From a virus: 20,401 bases of DNA. The stretch lies in IMG/VR virus record IMGVR_UViG_3300031851_004795, positions 1-20,401 of that record; one strand, written 5' to 3'. The position numbers and the translations under genes were made by a program. Shown here piece by piece: positions 655-20,401 of the stretch. The notes under the pieces are model-generated. The model saw only the letters and a list, made by a program, of their open reading frames with translations, made no database searches and was not told the DNA's origin. Each line of letters begins with the position of its first letter. Positions within the stretch are counted from its first letter, which is position 1.

Positions 655-663
655 GAATTAAAA

Positions 664-1683: not shown

Positions 1684-1688
1684 AAATA

Positions 1689-2750: not shown

Positions 2751-2760
2751 GAAATATGTA

Positions 2761-3768: not shown

Positions 3769-3774
3769 TGTGAG

Positions 3775-3782
3775 TATAAATA
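3775..3782 (+). promoter_or_regulatory. T4-type late promoter
   Basis: The exact octamer TATAAATA, the consensus recognised by the gp55-type late sigma factor of T4-like phages, stands 25 bases before the next ATG, between two adhesin genes. An AGGAG ribosome site follows at about 3794-3798. Spacing and strand match the other two copies of this octamer placed upstream of genes in this window. Confidence 0.8.
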
Positions 3783-3806
3783 ACCTAAGTTATAGGAGAA
3801 TTATTC

Positions 3807-5968: not shown

Positions 5969-5980
5969 AGAGTAGAAAAA

Positions 5981-6685
5981 ATGAGCAGAATTAAAAATAC
6001 GTTTACGTATAAAATTCCTGACGGTTACGTAGAGCAGACAAGCGTAAATGATTCTTCTGCTACGTTTACTTATCGGGGCCCACAATATTTAGGTATTTCC
6101 GTAGATAAAAACAATAATGTCGGCGGCAGCGCTAGAGAAGAAACAAGCGAAAGCTTTTTGACTCAGCGTCCAGGTGACCCTGTTGTAATTTCAGCATATG
6201 ACCATCCGCTTGAAGCTGCCATTTTATGGGGGCAACTTGGTGTTGATTCTTCAGATCAAGATTCGTCGGCATATCCTCATCTTACTGTTAATCTTCCAGA
6301 CGGCGATGATAATCATGTATATAAAGCACCATGGCCGCCTTTGCCGTGGAAAGCATATGAATCAACTATGCAATATGATACAAATACCGGAGTTTTCAGT
6401 GGATTGACATGGCACAAGCCGTGGACAAACTGGGGCGGAATTGGCGGGCAGGCTGCTGCCTTAAGGGCTCGTTCAGATGAAGAAGTTGCAAGGATTACCG
6501 CGCTTGGTTCAGATGCTACAGATGCAGACACCGCTAAAAAAGATGCATGGTTGGCAATGAATACAGAAATTGATAACAAAATTAATGTGTATCAAGGAGC
6601 CGGACTTAAACCGCATCAGGTCGTATGGACCAGAACTCCTGATTGGGAAGCTCCGGCCACGGCAATCGAAGACAGTGATGCATAA
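5981..6685 (+). CDS. Unrecognised protein, possibly tail-associated
   Basis: A 234-residue protein (MSRIKNTFTYKIPDGY...) that I do not recognise. It has no signal peptide or membrane segment. It contains an aromatic, Trp-rich middle (APWPPLPWKAYEST, TWHKPWTNWGG around residues 115-153) and then an Ala-rich probable helix (AAALRARSDEEVARI... to about residue 200). Only a few residues are charged clusters, and it contains no cysteine, in sharp contrast to the six genes before it. It starts 12 bases after the adhesin array and ends just before a hairpin, so it is probably the last gene of that late unit. An accessory virion protein or an assembly factor for the adhesins is possible from position alone. 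Confidence 0.6.
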   Translation: MSRIKNTFTYKIPDGYVEQTSVNDSSATFTYRGPQYLGISVDKNNNVGGSAREETSESFLTQRPGDPVVISAYDHPLEAAILWGQLGVDSSDQDSSAYPHLTVNLPDGDDNHVYKAPWPPLPWKAYESTMQYDTNTGVFSGLTWHKPWTNWGGIGGQAAALRARSDEEVARITALGSDATDADTAKKDAWLAMNTEIDNKINVYQGAGLKPHQVVWTRTPDWEAPATAIEDSDA

Positions 6686-6691
6686 AAAAAA

Positions 6692-6719
6692 CAAAGAGCC
6701 CATTAATTTGGGCTCTTTG
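6692..6719. terminator. Perfect 10-bp hairpin with flanking A-tract
   Basis: Stem CAAAGAGCCC, 8-base loop attaattt, stem GGGCTCTTTG, immediately after the stop at 6685. On the plus strand it is followed by gaaccg, not by a T run. On the minus strand it is followed by eight T (A-tract at 6684-6691), which makes it a textbook terminator for leftward transcription. It may act in both directions. Confidence 0.65.
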
Positions 6720-6741
6720 AACCGTGTATATATAACTACAT

Positions 6742-6770
6742 AATGATTATTTAGATCATTCATTTATAAT
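6742..6770 (+). promoter_or_regulatory. Possible promoter of the GT9-carbamoyltransferase cassette
   Basis: TATAAT lies at 6765-6770, 20 bases before the ATG at 6791. The matching -35 region (around 6742-6747, aatgat) is poor. A 6-bp inverted repeat (aatgat at 6742-6747, atcatt at 6755-6760) sits just upstream and could be an operator or chance in this AT-rich 105-base gap. No late octamer is present. Confidence 0.3.
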
Positions 6771-6790
6771 TTATTCTTGTGAGGTGCAAA

Positions 6791-7744
6791 ATGACAAGAT
6801 CAACAGCGTTCTTCGTGAACGGCGGGGCAGGCCGACATCTCTGCTCAATTCCAGCTTTCGAAAAATATGAACAAGAAAATCCTGACGACGATTTTATTAT
6901 CGTTTGTGAAGGTGGTATGGACATGTATAAAGGTCATCCGACCCTACATGCACGTGCATTTGATAATTGGCACAAAGATTTATTTGAATCATATGTCAAA
7001 GATCGAAATTGTATTACGACCGAACCATATCGGATCTGGGAATACTATAATCAAAAAGGAAGCTTAGCACAAGCGTTTGATATAGAAATCAACAAACAAG
7101 GCTTGCGCGAACTTCAAAAACCAACTCTAAAGTTATCAACTCAAGAAGAGGTTGATGGTTGGAATATTGTCGAAGAAGTAAAACAAAAAACCGGCAAAAA
7201 TAAAGCTATAGTCTTTCAGCCATTTGGAAGAGGCATTATGCCTATGGGCAAAAACTTGGTAGATCCAGGTGGGCGTTCATTTAGTCAGTCTGATGCAGTA
7301 AAGCTTGTTAAAAAAATCCAAAAGAAATATGCAGTAATTGTTATGGCAGAAATGCAAATTGACTGGAAAGAAGCCGGTTGCGCAGATCCAGTTGCACAAC
7401 CTGATGGTGCGCCATTACGATCATGGGCTGGATTTGTTAAAGCGGCAGATGGATTTGTTGGGTGTGATAGTGTTGGTCAACACTTTGCTTACGCGTTAAG
7501 TACGCCTGCTATAGCAGTACTTGGTGCAACCTTTCCAGAAAACGTAAGCTATCCAGACAGCAATACATATCAATGTTTAGATATTGGCGCTGGTCGTCGC
7601 GAGTATGATCCTATTAGGATTTCTATGGAAGACGAAAAACATCGCAAATCTGATGGCCTTATGTTAATGAACGACAAAGTTATCGATGAAATTTATAAAG
7701 AACTTGAAGTTATTATGAATAAAGGTGCAAAAAATGGAAAATGA
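6791..7744 (+). CDS. GT9-like (heptosyltransferase-type) glycosyltransferase
   Basis: A 317-residue protein. The ATG at 6791 is preferred over the in-frame GTG at 6779 because GAGGTG at 6781-6786 is a well-placed ribosome site for it. The N-terminal NGGAGRHLCSIPAF resembles the GxGDxL-x-x-P-A-L loop of GT-B fold family 9 enzymes. The C-terminal GCDSVGQHFAYALSTPAIAVLGAT (about residues 224-247) matches the family's GVDSGxxHLAAALGTPVVALFGxT nucleotide-sugar site. GT9 enzymes usually transfer heptose from ADP-heptose to lipopolysaccharide. Genes for ADP-heptose synthesis lie in the same window, so ADP-heptose is a reasonable donor, but donor and acceptor are inferred. The stop overlaps the next start region by 11 bases, suggesting translational coupling. 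Confidence 0.75.
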   Translation: MTRSTAFFVNGGAGRHLCSIPAFEKYEQENPDDDFIIVCEGGMDMYKGHPTLHARAFDNWHKDLFESYVKDRNCITTEPYRIWEYYNQKGSLAQAFDIEINKQGLRELQKPTLKLSTQEEVDGWNIVEEVKQKTGKNKAIVFQPFGRGIMPMGKNLVDPGGRSFSQSDAVKLVKKIQKKYAVIVMAEMQIDWKEAGCADPVAQPDGAPLRSWAGFVKAADGFVGCDSVGQHFAYALSTPAIAVLGATFPENVSYPDSNTYQCLDIGAGRREYDPIRISMEDEKHRKSDGLMLMNDKVIDEIYKELEVIMNKGAKNGK

Positions 7745-9557
7745 TATTTGGATTGCAGGCGTAGCTCGTGGCCATAATGGTGGCGTTTGTTTAATCAAAA
7801 ATGGTGAGATCGTATTTAGCATCGAGGAAGAACGACTCTCGCGTGCAAAATATGACGGCGGCCCGTATGCAGCTATTATGAAAATTCTTGATTATACCAA
7901 GAAAATTGATTATGTTGTTATTGCACATACTCAGTCACTTGCATCTACTGCCGGCATGGTGGATTTTTCAGGTGATGATGTATATACAGGCCTATTCCGT
8001 AAAATGGGTATGATCGATCGAGCAAATCGAACGCAAAAACACCCTCAAGTAATCGATCTTTCTATTATGCATCACAAGTTGCATGCGGCAGCTGCGTTTT
8101 ATCGTTCGCCGTTTGATTCGGCTGTTGCTCTTATTGCAGACGGCGCCGGCTCTGTTATGCCACTTGGTGATCCAAGCGATCCTAATCGACAATTAGGTTT
8201 CTGGGAATATGAAAGCATTATCGACTGTAGTTATCCTTCTAATTTTACAACGTTGTACAAGCACATCGGTTGTCGCGAACCAGTATCGGGCGCGGCTGAC
8301 GTCAAACTGTCGGCTGAAATATTTGGTGAAGAAGGCGAATATGAAGCACAAATCTCAGATCGCTGTGGACTGACCAAAGCCTATGAAGCTGTAACGACAT
8401 ACTGTGGTTGGGCTCCTATTGAAGCCGGTAAGACTATGGGCTTGTTTCCATACGGCAATGCAAATCCTGATATACCTGAATTGTTTGACAGTTTGTCGCC
8501 AAACCCTGGTATCACAAACCGAAATATCTTAGTGCCAAATACGCCAAACGGTGCTTTTGTCAACGACAATTTCTACAAACAGCTGCATGCAACCCAAGAG
8601 GAATTTGACGCGGCTGGAGGTGATTTAACAAAAATGCAGTTGCGGCGAGATATGGCGTATGCAATACAGACTGAATCACAAAAGCAAATGGTTGCATTGA
8701 TTCGTAAAGCTGTTGAAATGTCTGGTAATAACAACGTTGTTATTTCAGGCGGATACGGACTTAATTGCGTTGCTAATTATCATTACCTTGAAGCACTTAA
8801 AGATGAGGGCATTAATCTTTATATCGAACCAATATCTAATGATGCCGGAACAGCTATGGGCGCTGCGCTTATGTACTGGCACGGTCGAACAGACGATGAA
8901 ACAAACCGCGACTTAAATACATTATATCTTGGACCAGATCATAACTATACGATCGAAGATATTGCAGTCGCTGTCGCTGGGGCCGAAGAAGCTGTAATGT
9001 CAGACGCAACCGATAAAGATATTGTTGATCTAATGACAAGTAAAAATATTGTTACTGTGTTCCAGGGTCGATCAGAGAACGGGCCGCGAGCACTTGGTAA
9101 TCGTTCTATATTGTTTGATCCTACATTTAAAGACGGCAAAGATTATGTCAACAATATTAAAAATCGTGAGTATTTTCGGCCATTTGCAGGATCTATCCTA
9201 GCTGAAGATGTACACGATTGGTTTGATCTGCGCGGCATGGATGAAACACCTCACATGATGTATGCTGTGAATTGTAAACCAGGAGTTGATGAAAAGATTC
9301 CATCAATTATTCATATCGATGGAACTTGTCGTATTCAAACGGTAACAGAAGAACAAAACCCTTTATATTATAAATTAATTAAAGAGTTTAAAGAAAAAAC
9401 TGGTGTGCCTATTGTATTTAACACCAGTTTTAACCTGGGCGGAGAACCGCTTGTAGAAACTATTGACGATGCTATCCACACTCTTGTTAACTCAGACATT
9501 GAATATCTGTATTTGCCAGAGCACGGAAAGTTAATCAAAGTTGCTAACGAAGACTAA
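7734..9557 (+). CDS. O-carbamoyltransferase, NodU/CmcH/TobZ family
   Basis: A full-length 607-residue two-domain carbamoyltransferase. I use the ATG at 7734, preceded by AAAGGTG, rather than the GTG at 7725. The N-terminal TsaD-like ASKHA domain has GVARGHNGGVCLI, the metal-binding HHKLH (113-117), DGAG (136-139), ISGGYGLNCVAN (337-348) and NDAGTAMGAAL (369-379). The C-terminal YrdC-like carbamoylation domain has NGPRALGNRSIL (449-460) and NTSFNLGGEP (563-572). Such enzymes make carbamoyl-adenylate from carbamoyl phosphate and ATP and carbamoylate a hydroxyl of a sugar or antibiotic; members that carbamoylate 5-hydroxymethylcytosine in viral DNA have been reported. Coupling to the glycosyltransferase gene favours a glycan target here, but DNA cannot be excluded. 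Confidence 0.9.
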   Translation: MENDIWIAGVARGHNGGVCLIKNGEIVFSIEEERLSRAKYDGGPYAAIMKILDYTKKIDYVVIAHTQSLASTAGMVDFSGDDVYTGLFRKMGMIDRANRTQKHPQVIDLSIMHHKLHAAAAFYRSPFDSAVALIADGAGSVMPLGDPSDPNRQLGFWEYESIIDCSYPSNFTTLYKHIGCREPVSGAADVKLSAEIFGEEGEYEAQISDRCGLTKAYEAVTTYCGWAPIEAGKTMGLFPYGNANPDIPELFDSLSPNPGITNRNILVPNTPNGAFVNDNFYKQLHATQEEFDAAGGDLTKMQLRRDMAYAIQTESQKQMVALIRKAVEMSGNNNVVISGGYGLNCVANYHYLEALKDEGINLYIEPISNDAGTAMGAALMYWHGRTDDETNRDLNTLYLGPDHNYTIEDIAVAVAGAEEAVMSDATDKDIVDLMTSKNIVTVFQGRSENGPRALGNRSILFDPTFKDGKDYVNNIKNREYFRPFAGSILAEDVHDWFDLRGMDETPHMMYAVNCKPGVDEKIPSIIHIDGTCRIQTVTEEQNPLYYKLIKEFKEKTGVPIVFNTSFNLGGEPLVETIDDAIHTLVNSDIEYLYLPEHGKLIKVANED

Positions 9558-9580
9558 ATGAGAAGCACCTCATGCAACTA

Positions 9581-9606
9581 GGCGGGGATAATTCCCCGCC
9601 TTTTTT
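9581..9606 (+). terminator. Intrinsic terminator after the carbamoyltransferase gene
   Basis: GGCGGGGA (9581-9588), loop taat, TCCCCGCC (9593-9600), then six T (9601-9606). A strong GC stem plus T run 23 bases after the stop at 9557. The T run touches the stop codon of the convergent gene; on the minus strand there is no T run after the stem. Confidence 0.9.
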
Positions 9607-10256
9607 CATTGCAATGATTCTGCAAACTCAAGTAAATTGTCGTATATTTTAGTTTTCTTTTTTAGCGGCCTATTGGCAAAACTATTAAATTGTTTTTTGT
9701 CATCTTCATATTTACCTGTCTTAACTAGAACAGGTTTAAGCTTTGCTCGGTCAGCCATTTTAGCATCTACTAAACGATCACCTACATAGTATCCGCCTTT
9801 AAGCGGCACACCCATTTCATCGCGCAGACGTTTAAGCATGCCGGTATTTGGTTTAGAATAAATGTCATGCTTTAAATCTGACATGTTATATAACGTGCCA
9901 TCGATGCTAGGGCATCCGGCCTGACCAAATAAATCAATCATGTGGTCATTCATCCGATCCACGTCTTCTACAGTCAATTGGCCTCGAGAAATTCCTGGCT
10001 GGTCAAATATGATTGCTACTTTGTAACCCTTTGCCCTAATCATAGAAATTGCAGATAAAGAACCCTCAATAGGCTCAAAACTTTCTATTGATTTAACAAC
10101 ATCTTTGCATTTTATAAGTACGCCGTCACGATCAATAGCTACTAATGGCTTAGGATACTTACTCCACATTTGCGCTCTGCTTAACAGAGCGTCAGGAGAT
10201 CCTTGCTGTATCTCGTCAGACTTTTGATCTTGCCACATATTATACATTATTAACAT
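9606..10256 (-). CDS. gmhB: HAD phosphatase, GmhB-like heptose-1,7-bisphosphate 7-phosphatase
   Basis: Up to 216 residues. Three in-frame ATGs (10256, 10247, 10238) lie near the end of the upstream gene; a GAGG site is slightly too close to the first and slightly far from the second, so the start is uncertain by a few codons. HAD motifs: IDRDGVL (D42 and D44 from the first Met), K135 in SKPNTGML, and VGDRLVDAKMA (D160, D164). The order and the segment GISRGQLT-x-x-x-x-x-x-MNDHM fit histidinol-phosphatase/GmhB-type enzymes that dephosphorylate heptose bisphosphate. Two deviations: the usual TNQSG around motif II reads FDQPG, and the zinc-binding Cys/His loop of GmhB is absent. Context with HldD and HldE supports the heptose role; the exact substrate is inferred. 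Confidence 0.75.
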   Translation of the reverse strand: MLIMYNMWQDQKSDEIQQGSPDALLSRAQMWSKYPKPLVAIDRDGVLIKCKDVVKSIESFEPIEGSLSAISMIRAKGYKVAIIFDQPGISRGQLTVEDVDRMNDHMIDLFGQAGCPSIDGTLYNMSDLKHDIYSKPNTGMLKRLRDEMGVPLKGGYYVGDRLVDAKMADRAKLKPVLVKTGKYEDDKKQFNSFANRPLKKKTKIYDNLLEFAESLQ

Positions 10257-11064
10257 AATCCTCTACAGAGATCCAATCAATATCAACGTGCTTTGAAATT
10301 TTTTCTATATTTGCATGAGTAAATTCTTGATAACTTGCGCGGATTGACTGGGGCATCGGAATACGATTAATTGTCACGTCATGTTTTTCAGCAATAACAT
10401 TTGCAACACTTTCAAAACTCACTGGCTTACCTGTCCCAACATTAAATATGCCTGATACATCTGTGTCTAACATCTGTTCGTGGACTTTGCAAACGTCATC
10501 AACACATACAAAATCTCGGATGTATTTTTCTGAATCATCAAATAGCATAATAGAACCATCTATTAATGCTTGCTGCTTAAACTTAGTAACTGGCGACGCC
10601 TGATTGCCCTTAATTGATTCCCACTTCCCATAAACATTAAAGTATCTAAAGCCCTGGATATTAATAGGCAGAGGCATATCTAAAGTTTCTTCGACAAATT
10701 TATCGATAAGATACTTTGACCATGCGTAACCATTTAAAGGCCTGCAAGCGTCGGTTTCTCTGAATGTTGTACTATCGCCGTAAACTGATGCTGAAGATGC
10801 ATATTGTAGATCAATATTAAGCTCTAAACATTTCACAATAAGATCTGTCGTAAACTTATAATTTTTTTCCATAAGTTCATCTGCATTGCGTTCTGTTGTG
10901 CTACTAATAGCACCGCAATGTATTACTACATCTAAGTTTTCATGCAAAAGCAGCTCAGGTGTATCTCCCCACTCCCAGCCTTCGACGTTGTAGCCTTTTG
11001 ACTTAAAGTAAAGCCATAAGTTCTTCCCGATGAATCCTCGGTGCCCTGTTATTAATATATTCAT
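10240..11064 (-). CDS. hldD: ADP-L-glycero-D-manno-heptose 6-epimerase
   Basis: A 274-residue extended SDR protein. The ATG at 11064 gives MNILITGHRGFIG at the N-terminus with GGAAG about 7 bases upstream; a longer reading from 11085 would have no matching site. It shows the NAD(P)-binding TGHRGFIG (6-13), SSASVYG (90-96), the catalytic Y113-x3-K117 in GYAWSKY, and the HldD-specific RYFNVYGKWESIKG (140-153), followed by D-F-V-C-V-D-D-V and GIFNVGTG. HldD interconverts the C6 epimers of ADP-heptose, the last step before transfer to lipopolysaccharide. It is somewhat shorter than bacterial HldD (about 310). The start lies inside the end of the upstream kinase gene (62-base overlap) and the end overlaps the phosphatase gene, indicating one operon. 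Confidence 0.9.
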   Translation of the reverse strand: MNILITGHRGFIGKNLWLYFKSKGYNVEGWEWGDTPELLLHENLDVVIHCGAISSTTERNADELMEKNYKFTTDLIVKCLELNIDLQYASSASVYGDSTTFRETDACRPLNGYAWSKYLIDKFVEETLDMPLPINIQGFRYFNVYGKWESIKGNQASPVTKFKQQALIDGSIMLFDDSEKYIRDFVCVDDVCKVHEQMLDTDVSGIFNVGTGKPVSFESVANVIAEKHDVTINRIPMPQSIRASYQEFTHANIEKISKHVDIDWISVEDYVNNV

Positions 11065-11923
11065 TGATTTCTTCCATAGCTTCATTAAAATCTGTTGGGC
11101 TTATTACATAAGTTCCAGGTTTGCTCACGGCCAATCCAGCCATCTTGTTTGCTATAATCACAGCGTCCTGAACATCACAACTTCTGTATATCCCATATGC
11201 AAGCGCGGCAGTGAAGGTATCTCCCGCTCCAGTTACGTCAAACACTTCTTGCGCAGTTGCTTCGTAGTGTTCAACTGAATCACCAACGTATAAAACTCCT
11301 TCTGGTCCTAATGTGACAATGAAATGTTCTATTTCTAATTCATGTCTTAATCGTTGGGCTTCGGTCATCAAAGACTTAGGCGTAGTCGTATGTCCTATGT
11401 AGTCTTCAAATTCTTTTCTGTTTGGCTTTAATATAAAAGCACCTTTATAATTATCGAGCGAGATCTTAGGATCTACGATCGTGCGTTTAGATTTTTTAAT
11501 GATCGACTGTGGATCTTTAACTGTTCCCTTATCATAGTCAGATAATATGACTATTTCAAATTTATTTGGCACAAAGAATTTATCTTGTACATCGTTGTCT
11601 TCTATGCGTTTCTCGGCGTCGATCCTTGACATATAATGAGAGCCTGAGAATACGCGCAATTTATGTGGCATTTGTTCTGTTAGTAAAAGGTTGCCAGTCG
11701 CCTCTACCTTATCAAATATATATGCAAAATCTTCGCTGTAATATCCGTGAAGTGCAACTTGATTTGTTAATCCACGCAAATTCATATATACGTTGCCAGC
11801 ACCTCCAATCGAAATGCTTTTATTTTTTAAATCAACAATAGGCACTGGTGCTTCAGGTGATACACGATTAGTATCACCATGCCAGTACTCATCTATAATT
11901 ATATCACCTATCACATTAATCAT
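11003..11923 (-). CDS. hldE: D-glycero-beta-D-manno-heptose 7-phosphate kinase (HldE N-terminal domain as a separate gene)
   Basis: A 306-residue PfkB-family sugar kinase equal to the N-terminal half of bacterial HldE (RfaE). Residues 5-28 (IGDIIIDEYWHGDTNRVSPE...) match the RfaE opening GDxxLDxYWxGxxxRISPEAPVPV. GGAGNVYMNL (40-49), SDYDKG (128-133), LKPNRKEF (165-172) and the PfkB signature TGAGDTF (231-237, catalytic D235) follow. It phosphorylates heptose 7-phosphate at C1. The adenylyltransferase half, fused in most bacteria, is a separate gene at 15835-16236. The start MINVIG is the only sensible one; no strong ribosome site is visible. Its divergent neighbour is heme oxygenase, with promoter-like octamers between them. 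Confidence 0.9.
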   Translation of the reverse strand: MINVIGDIIIDEYWHGDTNRVSPEAPVPIVDLKNKSISIGGAGNVYMNLRGLTNQVALHGYYSEDFAYIFDKVEATGNLLLTEQMPHKLRVFSGSHYMSRIDAEKRIEDNDVQDKFFVPNKFEIVILSDYDKGTVKDPQSIIKKSKRTIVDPKISLDNYKGAFILKPNRKEFEDYIGHTTTPKSLMTEAQRLRHELEIEHFIVTLGPEGVLYVGDSVEHYEATAQEVFDVTGAGDTFTAALAYGIYRSCDVQDAVIIANKMAGLAVSKPGTYVISPTDFNEAMEEINEYINNRAPRIHREELMALL

Positions 11924-11925
11924 TG

Positions 11926-11933
11926 TATAAATA
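11926..11933 (+). promoter_or_regulatory. T4-type late promoter for the heme oxygenase operon
   Basis: Exact TATAAATA, 29 bases between its end and the heme oxygenase ATG at 11963. It begins 3 bases outside the start codon of the divergent kinase gene. Same strand and nearly the same spacing as the octamers before the gp13 gene and the gene at 3807. Confidence 0.78.
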
Positions 11934-11957
11934 CCATTTTATTCTACGTTATGGAGC

Positions 11958-11965
11958 TATTTATG
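11958..11965 (-). promoter_or_regulatory. Possible late promoter variant for the leftward heptose genes
   Basis: Read leftward this is CATAAATA, one mismatch from the late consensus, 34 bases before the kinase start at 11923, a spacing like that of the exact copies. It overlaps the start codon of heme oxygenase, so chance is possible. Confidence 0.35.
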
Positions 11966-12604
11966 CCACTTAAGAAAATGACACGCGAAGTTCATGAAGA
12001 AGCAGAGAACACTAAATGGTCTAAGCTATTAGTCTCTGGTAAAATGACCGATGAACAGTATGGCCAATACCTGTATAATATGCAACATATTTATGAAACT
12101 ATTGAAAACACTCTTGGCGCACACGACTTTTGGTCCAAACACCCTATACTTATAGATATCCAGCGGATTTTACCGATCACTCAAGATAGAGGCCAGTATA
12201 AATATGAAGCGGGACTTGAAGAATCAACTGTAAAATACGGCGATTACATTCGTAGCTTAGACGTCGACCAGCTATTGGCACACCTCTACGTACGTCATTT
12301 TGGCGATATGTACGGCGGCCAAATTATTGCTAAGCATGTACCAAAACCTACACATTATGAGACGTATGCAGAAAAAGCCGCTAACGATAGTGCAGCAGAT
12401 TCTGATGGTAGAGAATCATATTGGTTAAGTCCAGCTTTTACAGATCCGAGAAGTTGGACAAATTGTTATCATTTTGAAAACAAAACACAGATGAAAGAAT
12501 ATCTTAGAAATTTGTTAGATATTACTATGGCAGACGAAGCAATATTTGCATTTAAAAATAGTATAAACATTTTCAAAGATTTGGAAAAACGATTTGATCT
12601 TTGA
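11963..12604 (+). CDS. ho1: Heme oxygenase
   Basis: A 213-residue heme oxygenase that opens heme to biliverdin IX-alpha, CO and iron using reductant such as ferredoxin. The ATG at 11963 gives MPLKKMTREVHEEAEN, with the proximal heme ligand H11 in EVH-x-x-AEN, and has GGAG 6 bases upstream; the frame is open further left, but no ribosome site supports that. The distal-helix signature HLYVRHFGDMYGGQ ends at residue 120 (GDMYGGQ 114-120 holds the distal glycines). It is slightly shorter than bacterial or cyanobacterial enzymes (about 230-240). No signal peptide, so cytoplasmic. It follows an exact late promoter and overlaps the bilin reductase gene by 11 bases, so the two are probably made together late in infection. 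Confidence 0.93.
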   Translation: MPLKKMTREVHEEAENTKWSKLLVSGKMTDEQYGQYLYNMQHIYETIENTLGAHDFWSKHPILIDIQRILPITQDRGQYKYEAGLEESTVKYGDYIRSLDVDQLLAHLYVRHFGDMYGGQIIAKHVPKPTHYETYAEKAANDSAADSDGRESYWLSPAFTDPRSWTNCYHFENKTQMKEYLRNLLDITMADEAIFAFKNSINIFKDLEKRFDL

Positions 12605-13241
12605 TAAGCTCATCGCAGCTAGCCAAGACATGGAAGCCATTTTAGCAGAGTATTCATATGCGTGCCATACACACGATTTCCCATGGCCAGCAAAATCATA
12701 TCAGTCACCTGAAATATTTAGACAGGCTGACATAGATATTATTGATGCCAGAGAAGATCGAAAACTGTGGATGATGCACTTATGCATTTACCCGCATGTT
12801 AACGATCCTGCTCCGATATTTGGTTTTGATATTATTGCTGGTCCGAACAAGGTGACAGGTGCCTTTCATGATTTTAGTCCTATCGATCCATATAGTCATA
12901 TTCTATCAGAGTTTGCAACTAATGTACAGTCTTTTATTCCATCAAAGGCAAGAGAATTGCCTGATTGGGCAAAAAATATATTTAGTGGCAACATGGTTTC
13001 AGCCGGTAATATTCGTGATGGCAAAGAGTTAGACGATTTACTTGAGTTAGTAATTAATAATCTAAAATATTTTATCAAAAATATTGGCATGACAACTGAT
13101 AACGATTACACTGAACAACATAATTGGTATGCAATCAACCAAAAGAAAAATCCGCATACTGCTCGGGTTATGGAAAACATGGGTGTCGATCCTACGTTAG
13201 TACAAAGATATATTAACGAGTGTTTATTCCCGGAAATATAA
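12594..13241 (+). CDS. pcyX: Ferredoxin-dependent bilin reductase, PcyX type
   Basis: A 215-residue member of the ferredoxin-dependent bilin reductase family. H62 (in LWMMHLC) and D79 (in PIFGFDI) are 17 residues apart, the same spacing as the catalytic H88/D105 of PcyA and the His/Asp pair described for phage PcyX. The [10 protein letters not shown]-x-x-K-V segment and a C-terminal [10 protein letters not shown] are typical. Oceanic phage PcyX enzymes reduce biliverdin to phycoerythrobilin by four electrons; the product here is inferred. The start is probably the TTG at 12594, inside the heme oxygenase gene with GGA upstream; the next ATG (12630) lacks a ribosome site and would remove 12 residues. 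The 3' end overlaps the convergent ALAS gene by 18 bases. Confidence 0.88.
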
Positions 13242-14429
13242 TATAGATTCTTTGACAGCGTTAACACAGTCTTCGATCATAGCATCGGTGTGTAACGGAG
13301 TAGGTGCAAATCTTAATCGTTCTTCACCAACGGCTACTGTAGGGAAGTTAATGGCCTGGACATATATGCCGTGTTCCTCTAACAATCTGTCAGAAATAGC
13401 TTTACACTTGTCTGCATCACGGATCATTACCGGGACAATGTGTGTGCAAGCCTCTTTGAAAACTTCTATGTCTGCTTGTTTAAACTTTAATGAAAGTTTA
13501 GCCGCTTTTTCTTGATGCCTTTGTCTTAATTCGTGATGATCTTTAAGATATTTTATACTAGCTAAAGCACCGGCGCAAATGACTGGTGATATGCTCGTGG
13601 TAAATATGAACCCGCTTGCGGTTAGTCGTATAGCATCTAACACGTCAGCAGCGGCGGCTATGTATCCGCCAGTTACACCATACGCTTTACCAAGTGTGCC
13701 GTTAACGATATCTATTCGATCTTGTAAATTTTCATCTTCCAGTATTCCGGCTCCGCTATAACCATATAAACCAACGCCGTGAACCTCATCGAGATAAGTC
13801 ATTGCCTCGTACTTATCAGCTAATTCTACTATGTTTCCGATATCTGATTTATCGCCGTCCATAGAATATACAGATTCAAATACTACACACGGAATCAAAT
13901 CATCCTGCAAAGCATCGTTCAACTTGTCTTCAAGATCTTCCATATCATTGTGCTGAAATATAGACTTATGTGCGCCACTGTGTTTTATGCCTTGAATAAT
14001 ACTAGCATGATTCTTTGAGTCGCTGATAAAGCAAATGTTAGGTATTATTTTAGCTAGTGATATTATTGTCCACTCATTAGCCACATACGCGCTTGAGAAT
14101 AGTAAGGCGCCGCTTTTCTGATGCAACTTTGCAAGCTCTAGCTCAAGCGCTACGTGATAGTGAGAAGTTCCTGATATATTTCGTGTTCCGCCTGAACCAG
14201 CACCTGTTTGTTCAAGTGCTGTGTGCATAGCATCGATGACGATTTTGTTTTGACCCATGCCTAGATAATCGTTACTGCACCAATTAACAACTTCTTTGAT
14301 AGCATATTTGCCGTACCATATAGCCTTAGGAAACTTGCCGCGTTCACGAATAATATCATTGAATACTCGATATTTGCCTTCGGCCTTTGCGCTATCTACT
14401 ATATCCCAAAATGGTTCTAATTCAATCAT
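13224..14429 (-). CDS. hemA: 5-aminolevulinate synthase (viral ALAS)
   Basis: A complete 401-residue PLP enzyme condensing glycine and succinyl-CoA to 5-aminolevulinate, the single-step (Shemin) entry to tetrapyrroles. Hallmarks that separate ALAS from related 2-oxoamine synthases: [11 protein letters not shown] (50-60), [17 protein letters not shown] (76-92), [11 protein letters not shown]-type segment (135-145), SVYSMDGD (186-193), [12 protein letters not shown] (212-223, with D214 and H217 for PLP), the PLP lysine K248 in NGTLGKAYG, and [14 protein letters not shown] near the C-terminus. The pattern is closest to alphaproteobacterial ALAS and the lysine number equals that of the Rhodobacter enzyme. 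All key residues are present, so activity is expected. Its start overlaps the carbamoyltransferase stop (ATGA). Last gene of a five-gene minus-strand operon. Confidence 0.95.
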
Positions 14430-15307
14430 TTGTTTAAGTACGCGAGCACTGCCGTTTCAGCAGAGCCGGCATCTCCTGGATTAGGCGGGATATAGGCGGC
14501 ATATCGATCCTTTACTATTTGCTGTAAACCCTTATTGAAAGCACAGCCACCTGTAATAATAACCTGTTTATTGTCATAAGTATTAACAGCGTGATCTATG
14601 AATGCTTTGCATCGTTGTTCGAATACAATTTGTGTTGCGCCAGCTATTTCTTCTTTGCTTAAAAAGGGCCGCCAATTGCCAATGCCACGATGCATGTTCT
14701 TTTTCATTAAAGGTCTCCACTGGTGGCAAAACACCAAATCATTATATATGGCATCAATCGCAGCTTGGCTAGAATAACCGCGACCAAATTCTTCGATTAA
14801 ACCTTCTTGCTTCGACGGAATAAATCCACAACGTTGTGTCATAGCCGAGTAAAATAAGCCTAAGCTATCAGGATATTTCATTGAAACACGCTGTTTGAGC
14901 TTACCGTTTATATCTGCTGTCCATATAGATGAGCATGAAAATTCACCTATTGCATCAATAACTACAATAACACTTGGCACTTTAGCAGCATTGTAATAAT
15001 GTGCCGCATGCGCTTGATGATGCCATACGGTTTTTATTTGACAATTTATGCCAAACTCTTGTAAATATTTTTTGATATTGTTTCGTGTAAATGGTTTAGA
15101 CTGGCCTGCAATGTATTGTCGTATTGCTTTTGCCCAGGGCTTTTCAAACCACACTATCAATTCAGGACAAGCAACGTTCATTGCTTTCTGTATAAGGCTG
15201 ACGCTATGGACGTTATCAGTAGATGTAAATGATTGTAGCAGTGTGTCGTCAGAGAATACTGCTATTGTCGCATCGTGACATCCGCCTACCATACCCCATA
15301 TAATCAT
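14426..15307 (-). CDS. Single-domain NodU-type carbamoyltransferase (N-terminal TsaD-like domain only)
   Basis: A 293-residue protein covering only the N-terminal ASKHA/TsaD-like half of NodU-family carbamoyltransferases. It has [13 protein letters not shown] (5-17), the metal-binding HHQAH (96-100), D118-[17 protein letters not shown] (150-162), GGCAFNKG (253-260) and [11 protein letters not shown] (277-287). The C-terminal YrdC-like domain with GPRALGNRSI, which makes the carbamoyl-adenylate in full-length members, is missing; the sequence ends cleanly, so this looks like an evolved short form and not a frameshift. It might use carbamoyl-adenylate from another enzyme such as the full-length paralogue at 7734, or have a different role. 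ATGA overlaps on both sides tie it translationally to its neighbours. Confidence 0.85.
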
Positions 15308-15492
15308 GCAATAATATCTACGTATTGCCCTAGCCGCAAATAGCGCGGTTTAGGCTTTACTGCTGGCGTCGCTACAATTGGTTGAACTCTGCGTCGTAAT
15401 GTTTTGACAGGTTGTTGATTGGGTTTGCTGTCTGTATGCGCCGCAATTGTGCCGTATATTTGAGCTGCACGTATTTGCGAATCTAGTTTCAT
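15304..15492 (-). CDS. Small basic protein of unknown function
   Basis: A 62-residue protein, not recognised. It is basic and proline-containing in the middle (KTLRRRVQPIVATPAVKPKPR, residues about 30-50), without cysteine or membrane segment. Its reality rests on the neighbourhood: start and stop both form 4-base ATGA overlaps with the cupin gene upstream and the carbamoyltransferase gene downstream, and the rest of the operon is packed in the same way. It could be a small partner or anchoring peptide of the one-domain carbamoyltransferase, which is only a guess from coupling. Confidence 0.6.
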   Translation of the reverse strand: MKLDSQIRAAQIYGTIAAHTDSKPNQQPVKTLRRRVQPIVATPAVKPKPRYLRLGQYVDIIA

Positions 15493-15848
15493 TTTTGACT
15501 GTCTCCCTTTGCAACTCTATAGTTATCTTCTACTGAGTCAGGCGATGACACTTCAATTATAGTACCTTCTTCAATACAAAATAATTGATGTGGGACAAGT
15601 GGCTCGATCCTTAGTGAATCGCCTGGCTGCAGCCTACGTTTTTTAACAGATGCGTCATCTGTGTTTATGGTCAGTACATCAAACAGACCTTCAAAGACTA
15701 ACCAAGTTTCGTCCTTAATGGCGTGAAAGTGCATAGAGAACTTAGCCCCTTTATTAAAATTAAGAAGCTTACCGCAATACTTATCATTGGTCGCAAAGAT
15801 TAATTCGTGGCCCCAACCCTTATCAACCATACCCTCAAGTCTTGTCAT
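15489..15848 (-). CDS. Small cupin, sugar-isomerase-like
   Basis: A 119-residue single cupin. The ATG at 15848 is chosen because AAGGA lies 7 bases upstream; the longer reading would add a hydrophobic stretch encoded in the overlap with the upstream gene. The opening VDKGWGHELIF recalls the KPWGxE start of mannose-6-phosphate isomerase-type cupins. The metal-binding set is H-F-H-x(4)-E at about 40-47 (SMHFHAIKDETWLV), then the second cupin motif PGDSLRIEPLVPHQL (about 75-89). The substrate is unknown. Its place just behind the heptose adenylyltransferase gene suggests a step in activated-sugar synthesis. It overlaps that gene by 14 bases and the next one by 4. Confidence 0.75.
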   Translation of the reverse strand: MTRLEGMVDKGWGHELIFATNDKYCGKLLNFNKGAKFSMHFHAIKDETWLVFEGLFDVLTINTDDASVKKRRLQPGDSLRIEPLVPHQLFCIEEGTIIEVSSPDSVEDNYRVAKGDSQK

Positions 15849-16236
15849 CACAAATCCTTTTAATAATATTAGTAGTAGAATAACCGTCACACAGCTTCAG
15901 TGAAACAGTTAGTTTTGCTATGTCTCTTCCTACAATCTGGTCAATTTGGTAATCGCCGCCCTTAGTGAGCACATCAGGTTGTAGTTGTTTTATTAACTCA
16001 TACGGAGTGTCTTCATAGAATATGTATACATGATCTACGCACTTCAATGATTGTAGCATATATCTGCGGTCTTCTTCATTGTTAATAGGCCGCAAATCTC
16101 CTTTTAATCTGCGAACAGATGCATCTGAATTTATCCCGACTATAAGTCTGTCACCTAGATCACGCGATCTTTGTAAATAATCGACATGACCTCGATGCAG
16201 AATATCAAAGCAACCATTTGTAAATACTGTTTTCAT
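15835..16236 (-). CDS. hldE: D-glycero-beta-D-manno-heptose 1-phosphate adenylyltransferase (HldE C-terminal domain as a separate gene)
   Basis: A 133-residue nucleotidyltransferase equal to the C-terminal half of bacterial HldE (RfaE2 type). NGCFDILHRGHVDYL (7-21) holds the HxGH signature at 14-17, which binds ATP. GINSDASVRRLKGDLRP (34-50), DVLTKGGDY (88-96) and GYSTTNIIKRI (118-128) complete the family pattern. It makes ADP-heptose from heptose 1-phosphate and ATP. The kinase half is about 4 kb away at 11003-11923 on the same strand. First gene of the leftward operon ending in ALAS. A near-consensus sigma70 promoter ends only 5 bases before the ATG, so the transcript could be leaderless; no ribosome site is visible, and the family N-terminus rules out a later start. 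Confidence 0.92.
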   Translation of the reverse strand: MKTVFTNGCFDILHRGHVDYLQRSRDLGDRLIVGINSDASVRRLKGDLRPINNEEDRRYMLQSLKCVDHVYIFYEDTPYELIKQLQPDVLTKGGDYQIDQIVGRDIAKLTVSLKLCDGYSTTNIIKRICDDKT

Positions 16237-16241
16237 AGTCT

Positions 16242-16270
16242 ATTATACCATAATTTGGAGCAGTTGTAAA
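16242..16270 (-). promoter_or_regulatory. Sigma70-like promoter of the leftward operon
   Basis: Read leftward: TTTACA (16270-16265), 17-base spacer, perfect TATAAT (16247-16242). The -10 box ends 5 bases before the ATG at 16236, which places the transcription start at or next to the start codon. The -35 box lies close to the rightward late octamer at 16273-16280, so the two promoters are back to back. Confidence 0.75.
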
Positions 16271-16272
16271 CG

Positions 16273-16280
16273 TATAAATA
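16273..16280 (+). promoter_or_regulatory. T4-type late promoter of the gp13-gp17 block
   Basis: Exact TATAAATA, followed by G, 31 bases before the gp13 start codon. GAGGA at 16301-16305 is the ribosome site. Same architecture as the octamers at 3775 and 11926. Confidence 0.85.
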
Positions 16281-16311
16281 GAGTTAAACCCGATGAATTT
16301 GAGGATTAAAC

Positions 16312-17064
16312 ATGGCATCACCTAATAGTAGAGATACCTTGATCGAATATGCCAAGCGCAAGTTGGGCGATCCGGTAATAGAAATCAATGTCGACGAAGA
16401 TCAGGCAGAAGATAGACTTGATGAAGCACTTCAGTTATATCAAGAATATCACTCAGACGCGACAATTAAAACTTATTTTAAACATTTAGTAACAGCTGAC
16501 GATGTGACTAACGAATATATACCTATAACGTCTGATATTATATATGTATCTAGGTTATTCCCGTTTTTTACATCATCGGCGTCAAGAAATTTCTTTGATG
16601 TAAAATATCAGTTGATGCTCAACGACATGTGGGATCTTAACTCGGTTGTTGGCGGAATTGCTTACTATGAGCAAACACAACAATACTTGTCAATGCTAGA
16701 TATGAAACTCAACGGCACACCTCAAGTGTCATTTGCACGTAAACAAAATCGACTGTATATACACGGTGATTTTGCTGATAAAGATATTAAGGCCGGTGAT
16801 TACATTGTGGCCGAGGTATACCAGACATTAGACCCTGATACACACACGAGTATATACAACGATATATTCATAAAAGATTATACTACTGCACTTATAAAAC
16901 AACAGTGGGGTGCAAACCTTATTAAGTTTGAAGGCATGCAACTACCAGGTGGCGTTACGTTAAATGGTCGGGAAATTTATTCTGATGCTACCCAGGAAAT
17001 ACAACAACTCAAAGAGAATTTGAGACTTGAGCAAGAACTACCACCCAGCTTTTATGTAGGTTAA
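16312..17064 (+). CDS. 13: Neck protein gp13
   Basis: A 250-residue homologue of T4 gp13, which with gp14 closes the filled head and forms the collar onto which the tail docks. The opening LIEYAKRKLGDPVIEINVDEDQAEDRLDEALQ-like region (residues about 7-45) is characteristic of gp13 of T4-like marine phages, as is the segment around residues 75-110 (SRLFPF, then MLNDMWDL). It contains no cysteine. A late promoter and GAGGA site precede it, and gp14 follows after 3 bases. Length is below that of T4 gp13 (about 309), as is common in marine relatives. Confidence 0.9.
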   Translation: MASPNSRDTLIEYAKRKLGDPVIEINVDEDQAEDRLDEALQLYQEYHSDATIKTYFKHLVTADDVTNEYIPITSDIIYVSRLFPFFTSSASRNFFDVKYQLMLNDMWDLNSVVGGIAYYEQTQQYLSMLDMKLNGTPQVSFARKQNRLYIHGDFADKDIKAGDYIVAEVYQTLDPDTHTSIYNDIFIKDYTTALIKQQWGANLIKFEGMQLPGGVTLNGREIYSDATQEIQQLKENLRLEQELPPSFYVG

Positions 17065-17067
17065 ACC

Positions 17068-17946
17068 ATGGCAAGAAATCTTTATTTTTCTGACGCGGTT
17101 AGATCCGAGCAGAGACTTTACGAAGACATAATAATTGAATCACTTAAAATGTATGGGCAGGACCTGTACTATCTGCCACGGACTATTGTTAATGAAAATA
17201 AAGTTTTCGGTGAGGATGTATCTTCTCAATTTAACAACAGCTATAAAATCGAAATGTACATTGATAACGCCGAAGGCTTTGACGGCGAAGGCGATCTGTT
17301 TACAAAGTTTGGTGTAGAGATCAGAGATGAAGCTACATTCACTGTTGCAAAGAAGCGGTGGAATCAAACAGTGGGTCGCACTAACAATGAAATTCAAGGC
17401 GAACGTCCACGTGAAGGCGATTTAATCTATTTACCTATGTCTAATTCCATGTTTGAAATTACACACGTTGAGCATGAATCGCCGTTTTATCAGTTGGCCA
17501 ATCTGCCTACATTTAAGATGCGTTGTCAGCTGTTTGAATACGCAGACGAAGATCTTGATACAGGTCTTGGTACGATTGACGGCATAGAACAAGATCACGC
17601 CTATGAGTTTGATCTAATGCTATCAGGCACAAGCGGCGATTACATTGTCGGTGAACGAGTAACTCAGACAACTCCTAGCGGCGTGGTGTTAGGCGGCGAA
17701 GTATCAAGTTGGGTATCAAGTACTAATACGTTATCGATTATTCATTTTGGCGGAAGCGACGGCAAATTTCATTTGCCTGTTACATCGCTTGTCGTCACTG
17801 GTGCCGAGTCAAATGCAACAGGCACGCTTGCATCATATACTGAAGACAATAAATTATCTGACAATGAGCAAAACACTACGTTTGATACCATTGGTGCTGA
17901 TTTCTTAGACTTTAGTGAAAGTAATCCGTTTGGAGATCCTAGCTAA
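17068..17946 (+). CDS. 14: Neck protein gp14
   Basis: A 292-residue homologue of T4 gp14. The N-terminal stretch with LYEDIIIESLKMYGQDLYYL (about residues 17-36), then PRTIVNE and FGEDVSSQFNNSYKIEMYI, is the recognisable part in marine T4-like phages. It forms the neck with gp13 and, in T4, binds the tail terminator region. A C-terminal half with acidic stretches and G-x-V-V-x-G-type repeats (around 190-230) is less conserved. Only one cysteine. The stop overlaps the gp15 start by one base (TAATG). Confidence 0.9.
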   Translation: MARNLYFSDAVRSEQRLYEDIIIESLKMYGQDLYYLPRTIVNENKVFGEDVSSQFNNSYKIEMYIDNAEGFDGEGDLFTKFGVEIRDEATFTVAKKRWNQTVGRTNNEIQGERPREGDLIYLPMSNSMFEITHVEHESPFYQLANLPTFKMRCQLFEYADEDLDTGLGTIDGIEQDHAYEFDLMLSGTSGDYIVGERVTQTTPSGVVLGGEVSSWVSSTNTLSIIHFGGSDGKFHLPVTSLVVTGAESNATGTLASYTEDNKLSDNEQNTTFDTIGADFLDFSESNPFGDPS

Positions 17947-18728
17947 TGTTTGGCACTTATTTTTATCATCAACGTATACGTAAGGCTGTTGCCACTTTTG
18001 GTGCAATGTTTAATAATTTGTATGTTCTTCGAAAAGATTCTGGCGGCGGTGTTATTAGCACACAAAAAGTACCGTTAGCCTATGGCCCAAGAGCTAAGTT
18101 TCTTGATCGTATTCGTGAAATGCCAGATCTGCAGACAGATACAAAAGTTGCTATTAAACTGCCGCGCATGTCGTTTGAAATTACTAATGTCTCGTACGAT
18201 CCTTCTCGCCAGCTGCCTAAAACTAATAATTATGCAAAAGCAGTATCAGGTTCAATTTTAAGCCGGCAGAAAATATATGCCGGAGCTCCTTATATTGTTA
18301 GCTTTCAGTTAAGCTGTTATGCCAAGAATCAAGATGATGCTTTACAGTTAGTCGAACAAATAATTCCTTACTTCAATCCACAATATACATTGTCGATTAA
18401 GCCGTTCGAAGATTTTGAAGATATAAAAGAAGACGTCCCTATTATTTTGACTGGCGTCGTGTTAAATGACGATTACGAAGGACCAATGGAAGGTCGCCGC
18501 ACTATCATCTACACACTAGATTTTGATATGCATATAACATTCCACGGTCCGACCTCGTCCAGTGGCATAATCACTAAGTCTATCACAAATATTCTTGATA
18601 TTGGTGCCGGACTAAATGATAGTGATAATCCACTTGAAAGAATAACAGTAACTCCAACACCTGCCGGTGTAGGTGCTGATAGTGATTTTGGTTTCCTTGA
18701 AGTAATAGAAGAGATAGATAGTGCGTGA
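17946..18728 (+). CDS. 15: Tail sheath stabiliser and completion protein gp15
   Basis: A 260-residue homologue of T4 gp15, the hexameric ring at the top of the tail that stops the sheath from contracting and joins head to tail. Diagnostic parts: MFGTYFYHQRIRKAVATFG at the N-terminus (T4 starts MFGYFYN), VPLAYGPRAKFLDRI (around 42-56), and LVEQIIPYFNPQYTLSI (around 136-152), all matching the T4 layout. The ribosome site GGAGATC lies in the end of gp14. The C-terminal 50 residues are variable in the family. It ends overlapping the gp16 start (TGATG). Confidence 0.92.
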   Translation: MFGTYFYHQRIRKAVATFGAMFNNLYVLRKDSGGGVISTQKVPLAYGPRAKFLDRIREMPDLQTDTKVAIKLPRMSFEITNVSYDPSRQLPKTNNYAKAVSGSILSRQKIYAGAPYIVSFQLSCYAKNQDDALQLVEQIIPYFNPQYTLSIKPFEDFEDIKEDVPIILTGVVLNDDYEGPMEGRRTIIYTLDFDMHITFHGPTSSSGIITKSITNILDIGAGLNDSDNPLERITVTPTPAGVGADSDFGFLEVIEEIDSA

Positions 18729-19078
18729 TGGATTCAAATAATGCAGAAGATGATTTTGAAATGGTTCGACAAACTTATCATGATTTGTTAGCCAAGGGTG
18801 GATCATCACTTGAAGATATGATGGAAGTAGCTCGAGCTACCGAACACCCTAGGGCTTTTGAAGTTTTATCTGGCATGATGAAAAATATGGCAGATATTAG
18901 TGGCAACCTTATGGACATGCATAAGAAACGTAAAGAATTTCACACCACTGATAAACCTGCAGCTATTGCTGGCACAACAAATAATAATGTATTTGTAGGA
19001 TCTACTACAGAACTACAGCGTATGCTACAAGACGCAAGTGAGAAAATGATAGATGTATCTCCAACCGAAGAGCAATGA
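18728..19078 (+). CDS. 16: Terminase small subunit gp16
   Basis: A 116-residue homologue of T4 gp16, which forms the ring that recognises DNA and stimulates the packaging motor. I use the ATG at 18728 (TGATG overlap with gp15) over the GTG one codon earlier. The N-terminal part is predicted helical (SLEDMMEVARATEHPRAFEVLSGMMKNMA-type coiled-coil core, residues about 26-60). The C-terminal NNNVFVGSTTELQRML matches the T4 stretch with N-A-T-V-F-M-G-S-x-T-E-L, the part contacting gp17. It is shorter than T4 gp16 (164). The 3' end overlaps gp17 by 26 bases. Confidence 0.88.
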   Translation: MDSNNAEDDFEMVRQTYHDLLAKGGSSLEDMMEVARATEHPRAFEVLSGMMKNMADISGNLMDMHKKRKEFHTTDKPAAIAGTTNNNVFVGSTTELQRMLQDASEKMIDVSPTEEQ

Positions 19079-20401
19079 AACATATCTTGGTAATGTAAAT
19101 GTTAAACGTGATGGAGTAGTCCAGCAATGGGCCAATGAGCAAGTAGCAGAGTATGCTAAATGCATGAAAGATCCGGCATATTTTACTAAGACATATTGTA
19201 AAGTTATTTCATTAGACGACGGCCTAGTGGATTTTAATTTATACCCATATCAAGAAAAAATGTTTCGACATTTTAACGATCATCGTTTCAATATCGTTTT
19301 AGCATGCAGACAGTCTGGCAAATCAATTAGCTCAGTTGCATATCTGCTCTGGTACGCTTTATTTCACTCAGAAAAAGTTATTGCCGTTATGGCAAATAAG
19401 GGTGCGACCGCGCGTGAGATGCTTGGACGCATTACACTCATGCTAGAAAATCTACCTTTCTTTTTACAGCCGGGTTGTAAGGCTTTAAATAAAGGATCGA
19501 TTGAATTTTCAAACAACTCACGAATAATTGCTGCAGCGACATCAGGATCTTCAATTCGGGGTATGTCAGTTTCACTACTTTATTTAGACGAGTTTGCATT
19601 TGTCGAAAATGATGCTCAGTTTTACACGTCGACATATCCTGTTATTTCATCTGGTAAGAACACTAAAGTTATTATTACTTCGACTGCAAATGGCATTGGC
19701 AACGTATTTCAAAAAATATGGGAGTCGGCTCTGCAAGGCGTCAGCGAGTTTAAACCTATGCGAGTTGATTGGTGGGATGTTCCTGGCAGAGACGAAGCGT
19801 GGAAGCAACAAACTATAGGTAATACATCTCAACTGCAGTTTGATCAGGAATTTGGTAATACATTTTTAGGAACAGGTGATACACTTATTAATGGCGAAAC
19901 ACTCTTAGGCCTGAGAGCCAAGCCACATTTAGGTTTAAGAGAAAACGGAGATTTGAAAATATACGAAGAGCCTAAGAAAGCGCACGAGTATATTATGCTA
20001 GTAGATGTTAGTAAGGGAAGAGGACAGGACTATAGCACTTTTAATGTAATCGACATTAGCGGACGCCCGTTTAAACAGGTTGCTGTATATCGCAATAATA
20101 TTATTTCTCCATTACTCTTCCCCGATATTATTTATAAATGGGCGAATTCCTACAATACAGCATATGTCGTAATTGAATCAAACGATCAAGGCACTTTAGT
20201 TTGTAATGGCCTATATCAAGACTGGGAATATGAAAATATGCATGTCGAATCTGCGGTACGGGCTGACGGACTAGGCGTAGAAATGACACGAAAGGTTAAA
20301 CGTCTAGGATGCTCGGCATTTAAAGACGTGCTTGAAGAAAACAAATTAGAGTTAGTTGACGATCAGACAATTATTGAATGCTCTACCTTTGTCGCCAAAG
20401 G
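19053..20401 (+). CDS. 17: Terminase large subunit gp17 (3' partial)
   Basis: The ATG at 19053 follows two in-frame stops (TGA TAG) and lies inside the gp16 gene; the frame stays open to the window edge (449 codons). It is the DNA-packaging motor ATPase and headful nuclease. Visible motifs: Walker A CRQSGKS (85-91), Walker B LLYLDEF (175-181 with D179, E180), coupling motif TSTANG (209-214), and the RNase H-type nuclease residues D318 in VDVSKGRGQDYS and E375 in VIESNDQG. The third nuclease aspartate lies beyond the edge. Walker A falls at about residue 85, against about 161 in T4, so the T4 N-terminal extension is largely absent. A weak GTGAG precedes the start. Confidence 0.95.
   Translation, partial: MYLQPKSNETYLGNVNVKRDGVVQQWANEQVAEYAKCMKDPAYFTKTYCKVISLDDGLVDFNLYPYQEKMFRHFNDHRFNIVLACRQSGKSISSVAYLLWYALFHSEKVIAVMANKGATAREMLGRITLMLENLPFFLQPGCKALNKGSIEFSNNSRIIAAATSGSSIRGMSVSLLYLDEFAFVENDAQFYTSTYPVISSGKNTKVIITSTANGIGNVFQKIWESALQGVSEFKPMRVDWWDVPGRDEAWKQQTIGNTSQLQFDQEFGNTFLGTGDTLINGETLLGLRAKPHLGLRENGDLKIYEEPKKAHEYIMLVDVSKGRGQDYSTFNVIDISGRPFKQVAVYRNNIISPLLFPDIIYKWANSYNTAYVVIESNDQGTLVCNGLYQDWEYENMHVESAVRADGLGVEMTRKVKRLGCSAFKDVLEENKLELVDDQTIIECSTFVAK

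Follow-up and report, generated by a model that had tools for sequence, protein, structure and literature searches.

Opposed host-type and T4-type late promoter sequences between auxiliary genes and gene 13 of an uncultured marine T4-like phage

In the genome of an uncultured marine virus of bacteria, two conserved promoter sequences of two classes, which point in opposite directions, share the same 40 bp between a leftward series of auxiliary genes and the rightward late genes that begin with gene 13. The best reading of this junction, in our view, is that an early, leaderless auxiliary-gene operon has been set divergently against an older late promoter, with a host-type extended -10 promoter standing back to back with a T4-type late promoter that would serve the late neck and terminase genes. 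We assign a probability of roughly 0.62 to this reading. The window, by which we mean the whole stretch of DNA that was analysed, is an IMG/VR contig of 20,401 bases and is identical to the source record. The coordinates of its features are collected in Table 1.

Gene content and promoter sequences of the window

The rightward genes at the right end of the window encode the neck proteins 13 and 14, the sheath stabiliser 15 and the small and large subunits of the terminase, which identifies the window as part of a T4-like myovirus. The best full-length matches to gp13 in isolates were those of the Pelagibacter phages HTVC008M (45.2% identity) and Mosig (44.5%), while the match to Caulobacter phage Cr30 was 45.7% across 93% and identities of up to 90% were found in uncultured contigs. 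With these match levels, the host of the virus is only a guess.

Leftward from gene 13, the gene order is rfaE2, cupin, a 62-aa ORF, a carbamoyltransferase-type protein and ALAS. The profile searches thus agree with the initial annotation, in which the leftward series was said to consist of heptose and ALAS genes. Its description of the rightward series as packaging genes holds for the terminase but is loose, as the first genes served are those for the neck (13, 14) and the sheath stabiliser (15). Beyond ALAS, the genes for a heme oxygenase (HO) and a bilin reductase are located on the other strand, followed by leftward genes for an RfaE1-like kinase, an epimerase and a HAD phosphatase; the kinase scored 234.7 bits, well short of the NCBIfam cut-off of 345. 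At the other end, the rightward genes at positions 1-5968 encode a run of proteins rich in cysteine and glycine, and a late octamer is present at 3775-3782; this part is probably the tail-fibre region, judged by its look alone.

Direct reading confirmed to the base the positions given earlier for both promoters of the rfaE2/gene 13 junction and their separation by two bases, which are CG (16271-16272). The leftward site consists of a -35 box, a 17-nt spacer, a -10 box and the TG of sigma70 extended -10 promoters. With 11 of 12 consensus matches, it was at the top of 68 promoter-like sites in a scan of window positions 1-20000; a second 11-of-12 site, on the + strand at 15275-15304, was without the TG, which the leftward site alone of the two contains. 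When the 75-bp intergenic region was dinucleotide-shuffled, the score of the leftward site (matches plus TG) was reached leftward in 0 of 20,000 sequences and on either strand in 3. The corresponding result for the whole window was less striking: one such site was observed, and 30 shuffles gave 0.23 on average and at most 2. This expectation of 0.23 sites, together with the persistence of the leftward genes in 4 of 14 junction types that have no such promoter (see below), speaks for a chance origin of the box pair and transcription of the leftward series from elsewhere. However, the shuffle test of the junction and the conservation of the boxes make such an origin very improbable.

The rightward octamer, TATAAATA, is located 31 nt ahead of the start codon of gene 13. 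The T4 late consensus is placed at -13 to -6 in the part of the source that describes it (PMC1524935), and the late transcription start in Table 1 is predicted from this rule. The octamer alone is not rare: five copies were found in the window as compared to 2.0 expected, and 3 of 100 shuffles reached five. Its placement is another matter. Among the best 80 of 595 candidate gp13 loci, fetched by protein similarity, 72 contain TATAAATA no more than 60 nt upstream of gene 13 (60 of the 67 distinct sequences), so that the octamer stands ahead of structural genes in relatives too, and one further locus contains only CATAAATA upstream of the gene. As a control, TATAAATA was found in 117 of 8000 random 60-nt windows from the same 80 loci. 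The placement of the octamer before gene 13 is thus non-random.

The longest ORF upstream of gp13 was rightward in 67 of these 80 loci, while it was a leftward rfaE2 in 4, a doubtful leftward ORF in 1 (L045) and could not be called before the end of the contig in 8. Since the octamer is present in most of the loci, the late promoter probably predates the divergent arrangement. None of the ORFs searched in this 20-kb record was gp55, gp33 or the sliding clamp; the annotation of HTVC008M, whose gp13 is 45% identical to that of the window, lists a late sigma factor, a sliding clamp and a putative late-promoter factor.

Table 1. Positions of genes and of observed and predicted transcription signals in the window.
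Feature	Position	Strand	Remarks
Second leftward arm: RfaE1-like kinase, epimerase, HAD phosphatase	9606..11923	-	
Second late octamer, upstream of heme oxygenase	11926..11933	+	
Heme oxygenase (HO)	11963..12604	+	Strand opposite to the leftward series
Ferredoxin-dependent bilin reductase, "PcyX" by analogy	12594..13241	+	Overlaps the 3' end of ALAS
5-aminolevulinate synthase (ALAS)	13224..14429	-	TIGR01821, 551 bits; NCBIfam cut-off 338.55 (passed)
Carbamoyltransferase N-terminal-type protein	14426..15307	-	
62-aa ORF	15304..15492	-	No family in Pfam search
Cupin-domain protein	15489..15848	-	Cupin_2, 25.5 bits; cut-off 27.2
rfaE2-like heptose-1-phosphate adenylyltransferase, first leftward gene	15835..16236	-	TIGR02199, 179 bits; just below cut-off of 181.5
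Predicted leftward transcription start, leaderless mRNA	16236	-	A of the rfaE2 ATG; from the -10/ATG gap
-10 hexamer TATAAT, leftward promoter	16242..16247	-	Extended -10 TG at 16249-16250; invariant in window, L002, L003 and L020
-35 hexamer TTTACA, leftward promoter	16265..16270	-	As + strand TGTAAA in 10 of 14 rfaE2/gene 13 junction types
T4-type late promoter octamer TATAAATA	16273..16280	+	Exact match to T4 late consensus
Predicted late transcription start	16286	+	From T4 rule, octamer at -13 to -6 (PMC1524935, passage on the late consensus)
Shine-Dalgarno-like GAGGA of gene 13	16301..16305	+	Direct reading
Gene 13 (neck, head-tail adaptor), first rightward late gene	16312..17064	+	

Conservation of the junction and occurrence of the layout elsewhere

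The conservation of the leftward promoter was examined in junctions where rfaE2 or the kinase is divergent to gene 13. Among the 43 loci of this set there are 27 different junctions; the gene beside gene 13 is rfaE2 in 14 of them and the kinase in 13. All 14 distinct rfaE2 junctions were also reached by protein similarity; L165 and L166 were obtained from a separate promoter-pattern scan, with junctions identical to protein-found ones, and L218, found by the pattern scan described below, was left uncounted. The leftward boxes are kept in 10 of the 14 rfaE2 types. In nine of these (the window, L002, L003, L020, L091, L096, L097, L106 and L148) they precede rfaE2, and in the tenth, L107 (also contig L108), they are located ahead of an inserted gene. 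The promoter was not found in the remaining four of the 14 types (L053, L118, L125 and L145), and the leftward genes can therefore manage without it. In L118 and L145, the intergenic region before gene 13 is just 33 bp long and the first base of the octamer is shared with the start codon of rfaE2, which leaves no room for such a leftward promoter. The kinase-type junctions are differently built, with CTCC (leftward GGAG) just before the start in 5 of 13 (L092, L100, L102, L122 and L128).

In an alignment of the window with L002, L003 and L020, all 23 columns of the -10 box, the -35 box and the octamer are invariant, as compared to 10 of 22 other columns (p 2e-5; the 23 columns were picked after viewing the alignment, and two of the four sequences, L002 and L003, are closely related). 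Between the unchanged leftward boxes, the spacer has diverged. In a gp13 tree of 47 rows, which include 17 hand-picked tandem loci, the promoter-bearing rows form two separate groups of 4 and 8 rows, with several weak inner forks.

We also scanned viral contigs for the pattern ATTATA, 16-18 nt, TGTMAA, 0-6 nt, TATAAATA, which gave at least 120 stretches, and for a reversed control pattern, which gave 53. Among the matches listed, and by identical ORF criteria for both patterns, divergent ORFs were present at 23 of 108 distinct real sites versus 0 of 38 distinct control sites (p 6e-4, or 1e-3 without L218). Nine of these 23 sites, again among the matches listed, have a gap of 4-8 nt to the leftward ATG; the divergent and leaderless layout, found at 9 of the 108 listed sites versus 0 of the 38 controls, did not differ significantly from the control (p 0.11). 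A looser first count gave divergent ORFs at 39 of 85 sites among the matches listed, as compared to 551 of 4250 random positions; the window and five kin from the scan that had yielded L165 and L166 account for 6 of the 39.

In five contigs that belong to these nine sites (L254, L255, L260, L291 and L317), the back-to-back layout has a small ORF on its leftward side and a gene for an SNase-type nuclease on its rightward side, an assignment for which a Pfam match was tested in L254 and which was made by similar N-termini in the other four. In the isolates Melnitz and S-TIM5, the genes next to the SNase gene are arranged in tandem with it. The back-to-back pattern was found in neither of the two isolates searched, HTVC008M and Mosig. 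Gene 13 of Mosig is in a tandem and not a divergent arrangement. HTVC008M has a divergent oxygenase/ferrochelatase operon at gene 13 (L197, 5966-6001), with a 32-bp gap and the octamer variant CATAAATA.

That relatives keep both signals suggests a real early/late gene arrangement. The alternative is that there is no regulatory link, and that an auxiliary cassette landed divergently by the old gene 13 late promoter, the closeness of the two promoters being explained by the compact intergenic space. The predominance of rightward upstream ORFs in the gp13 loci and the probably greater age of the octamer fit this explanation, as does the variable distance between the -35 box and the octamer (see below), and in pelagimyophages a nonsyntenic island of variable genes ends at the neck gene, according to the section of the survey that treats it (PMC7029224). 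However, two gp13 groups that lie apart in the tree both retain the boxes, and divergent ORFs were restricted to the real pattern (23 of 108 among the matches listed, 0 of 38 in the control), and we consider an arrangement with no regulatory link to be possible, at clearly less than even odds.

Predicted leaderless start, promoter occupancy and antisense transcription

In all ten promoter-bearing junction types, the leftward start codon is located 5-6 nt from the end of the -10 box. The window has only AGACT (5 nt) between the -10 box and the ATG of rfaE2, with no Shine-Dalgarno sequence between the predicted start and the start codon. The sigma70 polymerase initiates about 6-8 nt downstream of the -10 box, so the gap predicts a transcript whose first base is the A of the AUG. 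Such a leftward mRNA would be leaderless, leaving no space upstream of the start codon for a ribosome-binding site. The start codon of rfaE2 is secured by homology, with a conserved FTNGCFD stretch from residue 5, which has a role in nucleotide binding. A natural test of the spacing is provided by L107 (also contig L108), where rfaE2 is separated from the leftward promoter by an inserted gene for a 193-aa 2OG-Fe(II) oxygenase (2581-3159; Pfam E 2.9e-17). The ATG of the oxygenase gene is likewise 6 nt from the -10 box.

Two further ideas about leaderless starts were tried and rejected. Such starts do not appear to be a general feature of pelagiphages, as TATAAT was found once each at gaps of 4 and 6, with no peak, among 193 script-called ORFs of HTVC008M. 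Synonymous conservation at the 5' end of rfaE2 is not diagnostic of leaderless translation: codons 2-8 are identical in 81% of comparable pairs versus 56% for codons 13-93 in the promoter-bearing group, but the group with no promoter gave 79% versus 50%.

The -35 box and the octamer are separated by 2 nt in seven of the promoter-bearing junction types and by 9 nt in three (L096, L097 and L148), which places the predicted start sites about 50 bp or 57-58 bp apart, respectively. Because the footprint of a sigma70 complex extends roughly from -55 to +20, an overlap with the late complex is expected at either gap, and on any single DNA copy occupation of one promoter should then exclude that of the other. 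Relative to the leftward start, the octamer itself spans about -37 to -44, where a proximal UP element would be located, and it may by this position help leftward transcription early in infection.

According to our preferred reading of an early leaderless operon set against an older late promoter, host RNA polymerase would fire the leftward promoter early and produce an mRNA starting at the AUG. After replication, a polymerase with gp55, gp33 and the sliding clamp would occupy the same stretch and fire rightward. The change in timing would probably come mainly from the changed form of the polymerase, reinforced by local occlusion and by antisense late transcription from the octamer upstream of HO.

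The initial annotation had gone further, in proposing that only one polymerase form can bind at a time and that activation of late transcription should thereby shut the leftward operon. The overlapping footprints predicted here support the first part of this proposal, and the footprint of the clamp-activated late complex extends 13 bp further upstream than that of the basal complex, as stated in PMC2988020. As the main cause of the shut-off, however, occupation of the late promoter seems unlikely: the gap between the two promoters is variable, the leftward promoter is missing in 4 of the 14 junction types, high occupancy of the late promoter would be required on every genome copy, and replacement of sigma at the late stage alone predicts identical timing.

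The predicted leaderless start goes beyond the initial annotation, as does the finding that the HO/PcyX pair with its late octamer (11926-13241) is antisense within the leftward series (9606-16236). This nested gene order is kept in 9 loci in which both leftward arms are visible. Of 8 distinct related junctions, a count that excludes L073 because of its different context, 7 have a late octamer no more than 36 nt from HO; in the eighth, L053, there is one further upstream. In 15 loci of the rfaE2/gene 13 group where both ends are readable, the gene for the bilin reductase converges tail to tail with the leftward arm, the two either touching or overlapping, and as judged by eye their matched ends are no more than 5 bp apart; in the window the reductase and ALAS overlap by 18 bp. 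No terminator was predicted between 12973 and 15645 of the window, the reductase/ALAS junction included, and taken together with the tail-to-tail overlap this means that transcription of either operon may run antisense through the other. Ahead of the leftward/HO block, at 9580-9601, is a strong terminator-like site in the rightward direction.

Antisense control of a noncontiguous operon could even be the main switch. Late transcripts from the HO octamer would then be antisense to ALAS and the other leftward genes, and early leftward transcripts would cross HO-PcyX in antisense and continue into the second heptose arm. The tail-to-tail ends with no space for a terminator and the octamers near HO would both favor such control, for which phage 80alpha provides a measured precedent in the portion of PMC11087260 that reports it. 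Nevertheless, weak terminator-like matches are present inside genes (leftward at 12972-12957, rightward at 15646-15662 and 16049-16071), and the second arm could have a promoter of its own in HO, where a weak 9-of-12 site was found (11969-11941). Furthermore, the reductase and ALAS are on the same strand in seven other contigs (L117, L123, L124, L130, L149, L157 and L158), and the antisense arrangement is therefore not universal. As the main switch, we think antisense control rather doubtful.

Comparison with known systems and implications

If the preferred reading of an early operon opposed to an older late promoter is correct, the junction would give a precise and testable early/late boundary for uncultured marine T4-like phages, a group for which the prediction of middle and late promoters in pelagimyophage genomes was unsuccessful in a 2020 survey, as stated in its passage on promoters (PMC7029224). 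The prediction is that ALAS and the heptose genes are expressed early, and heme oxygenase and bilin reductase late. It bears on why phages carry heme-making plus heme-breaking genes, a co-occurrence called "enigmatic" in one passage of Wegner 2024 (PMC11480375). More tentatively, marine T4-like phages may reuse a compact module in which a leaderless early promoter is back to back with a late octamer, and new genes are inserted so that their AUG coincides with the transcription start and they are timed against the late genes; here the module would be coupled to the late antisense HO/bilin-reductase pair. The inserted genes would be rfaE2, the oxygenase in L107 and the small ORF opposite the SNase-type nuclease in other contigs. 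We regard this generalization as doubtful; if true, heme-precursor supply would be early and heme breakdown late.

The marine phage contigs described by Wegner 2024 carry genes of like kinds to the ALAS, HO and bilin reductase genes of the window (valaS, hemO, pcyA/X), and gp13 too, in the parts of that study that list them (PMC11480375). A passage in it that mentions a promoter is about the expression plasmid, and the words "operon", "opposite" and "orientation" have 0 occurrences in its main text (PMC11480375). Our literature search found no title on this promoter pair; subscription journals were mostly outside its coverage.

The PRM/PR region of phage lambda is a divergent promoter pair. 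The cI transcript is named as a leaderless mRNA in the relevant passage of PMC9031893, and lambda cI transcribed from PRM thus shares with the window junction both a leaderless start, predicted here, and a divergent promoter pair. However, the window junction would use two polymerase forms where lambda uses one, no repressor or operators were noticed in it, and we do not class it as a member of that system. The noncontiguous operons of phage 80alpha, in the part of PMC11087260 that describes them, have an antisense gene with a promoter of its own inside a longer operon, as in the window, whereas the window pits a host-type promoter against T4-type late promoters and is known here from sequence alone. 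A further likeness is to the late promoters of T4, which are recognized with gp55, gp33 and the gp45 clamp: the octamer of the window is identical and stands before a structural gene, but it belongs to an uncultured marine relative. The parts of the junction are thus of known kinds, and it is their conserved combination that is unusual and new.
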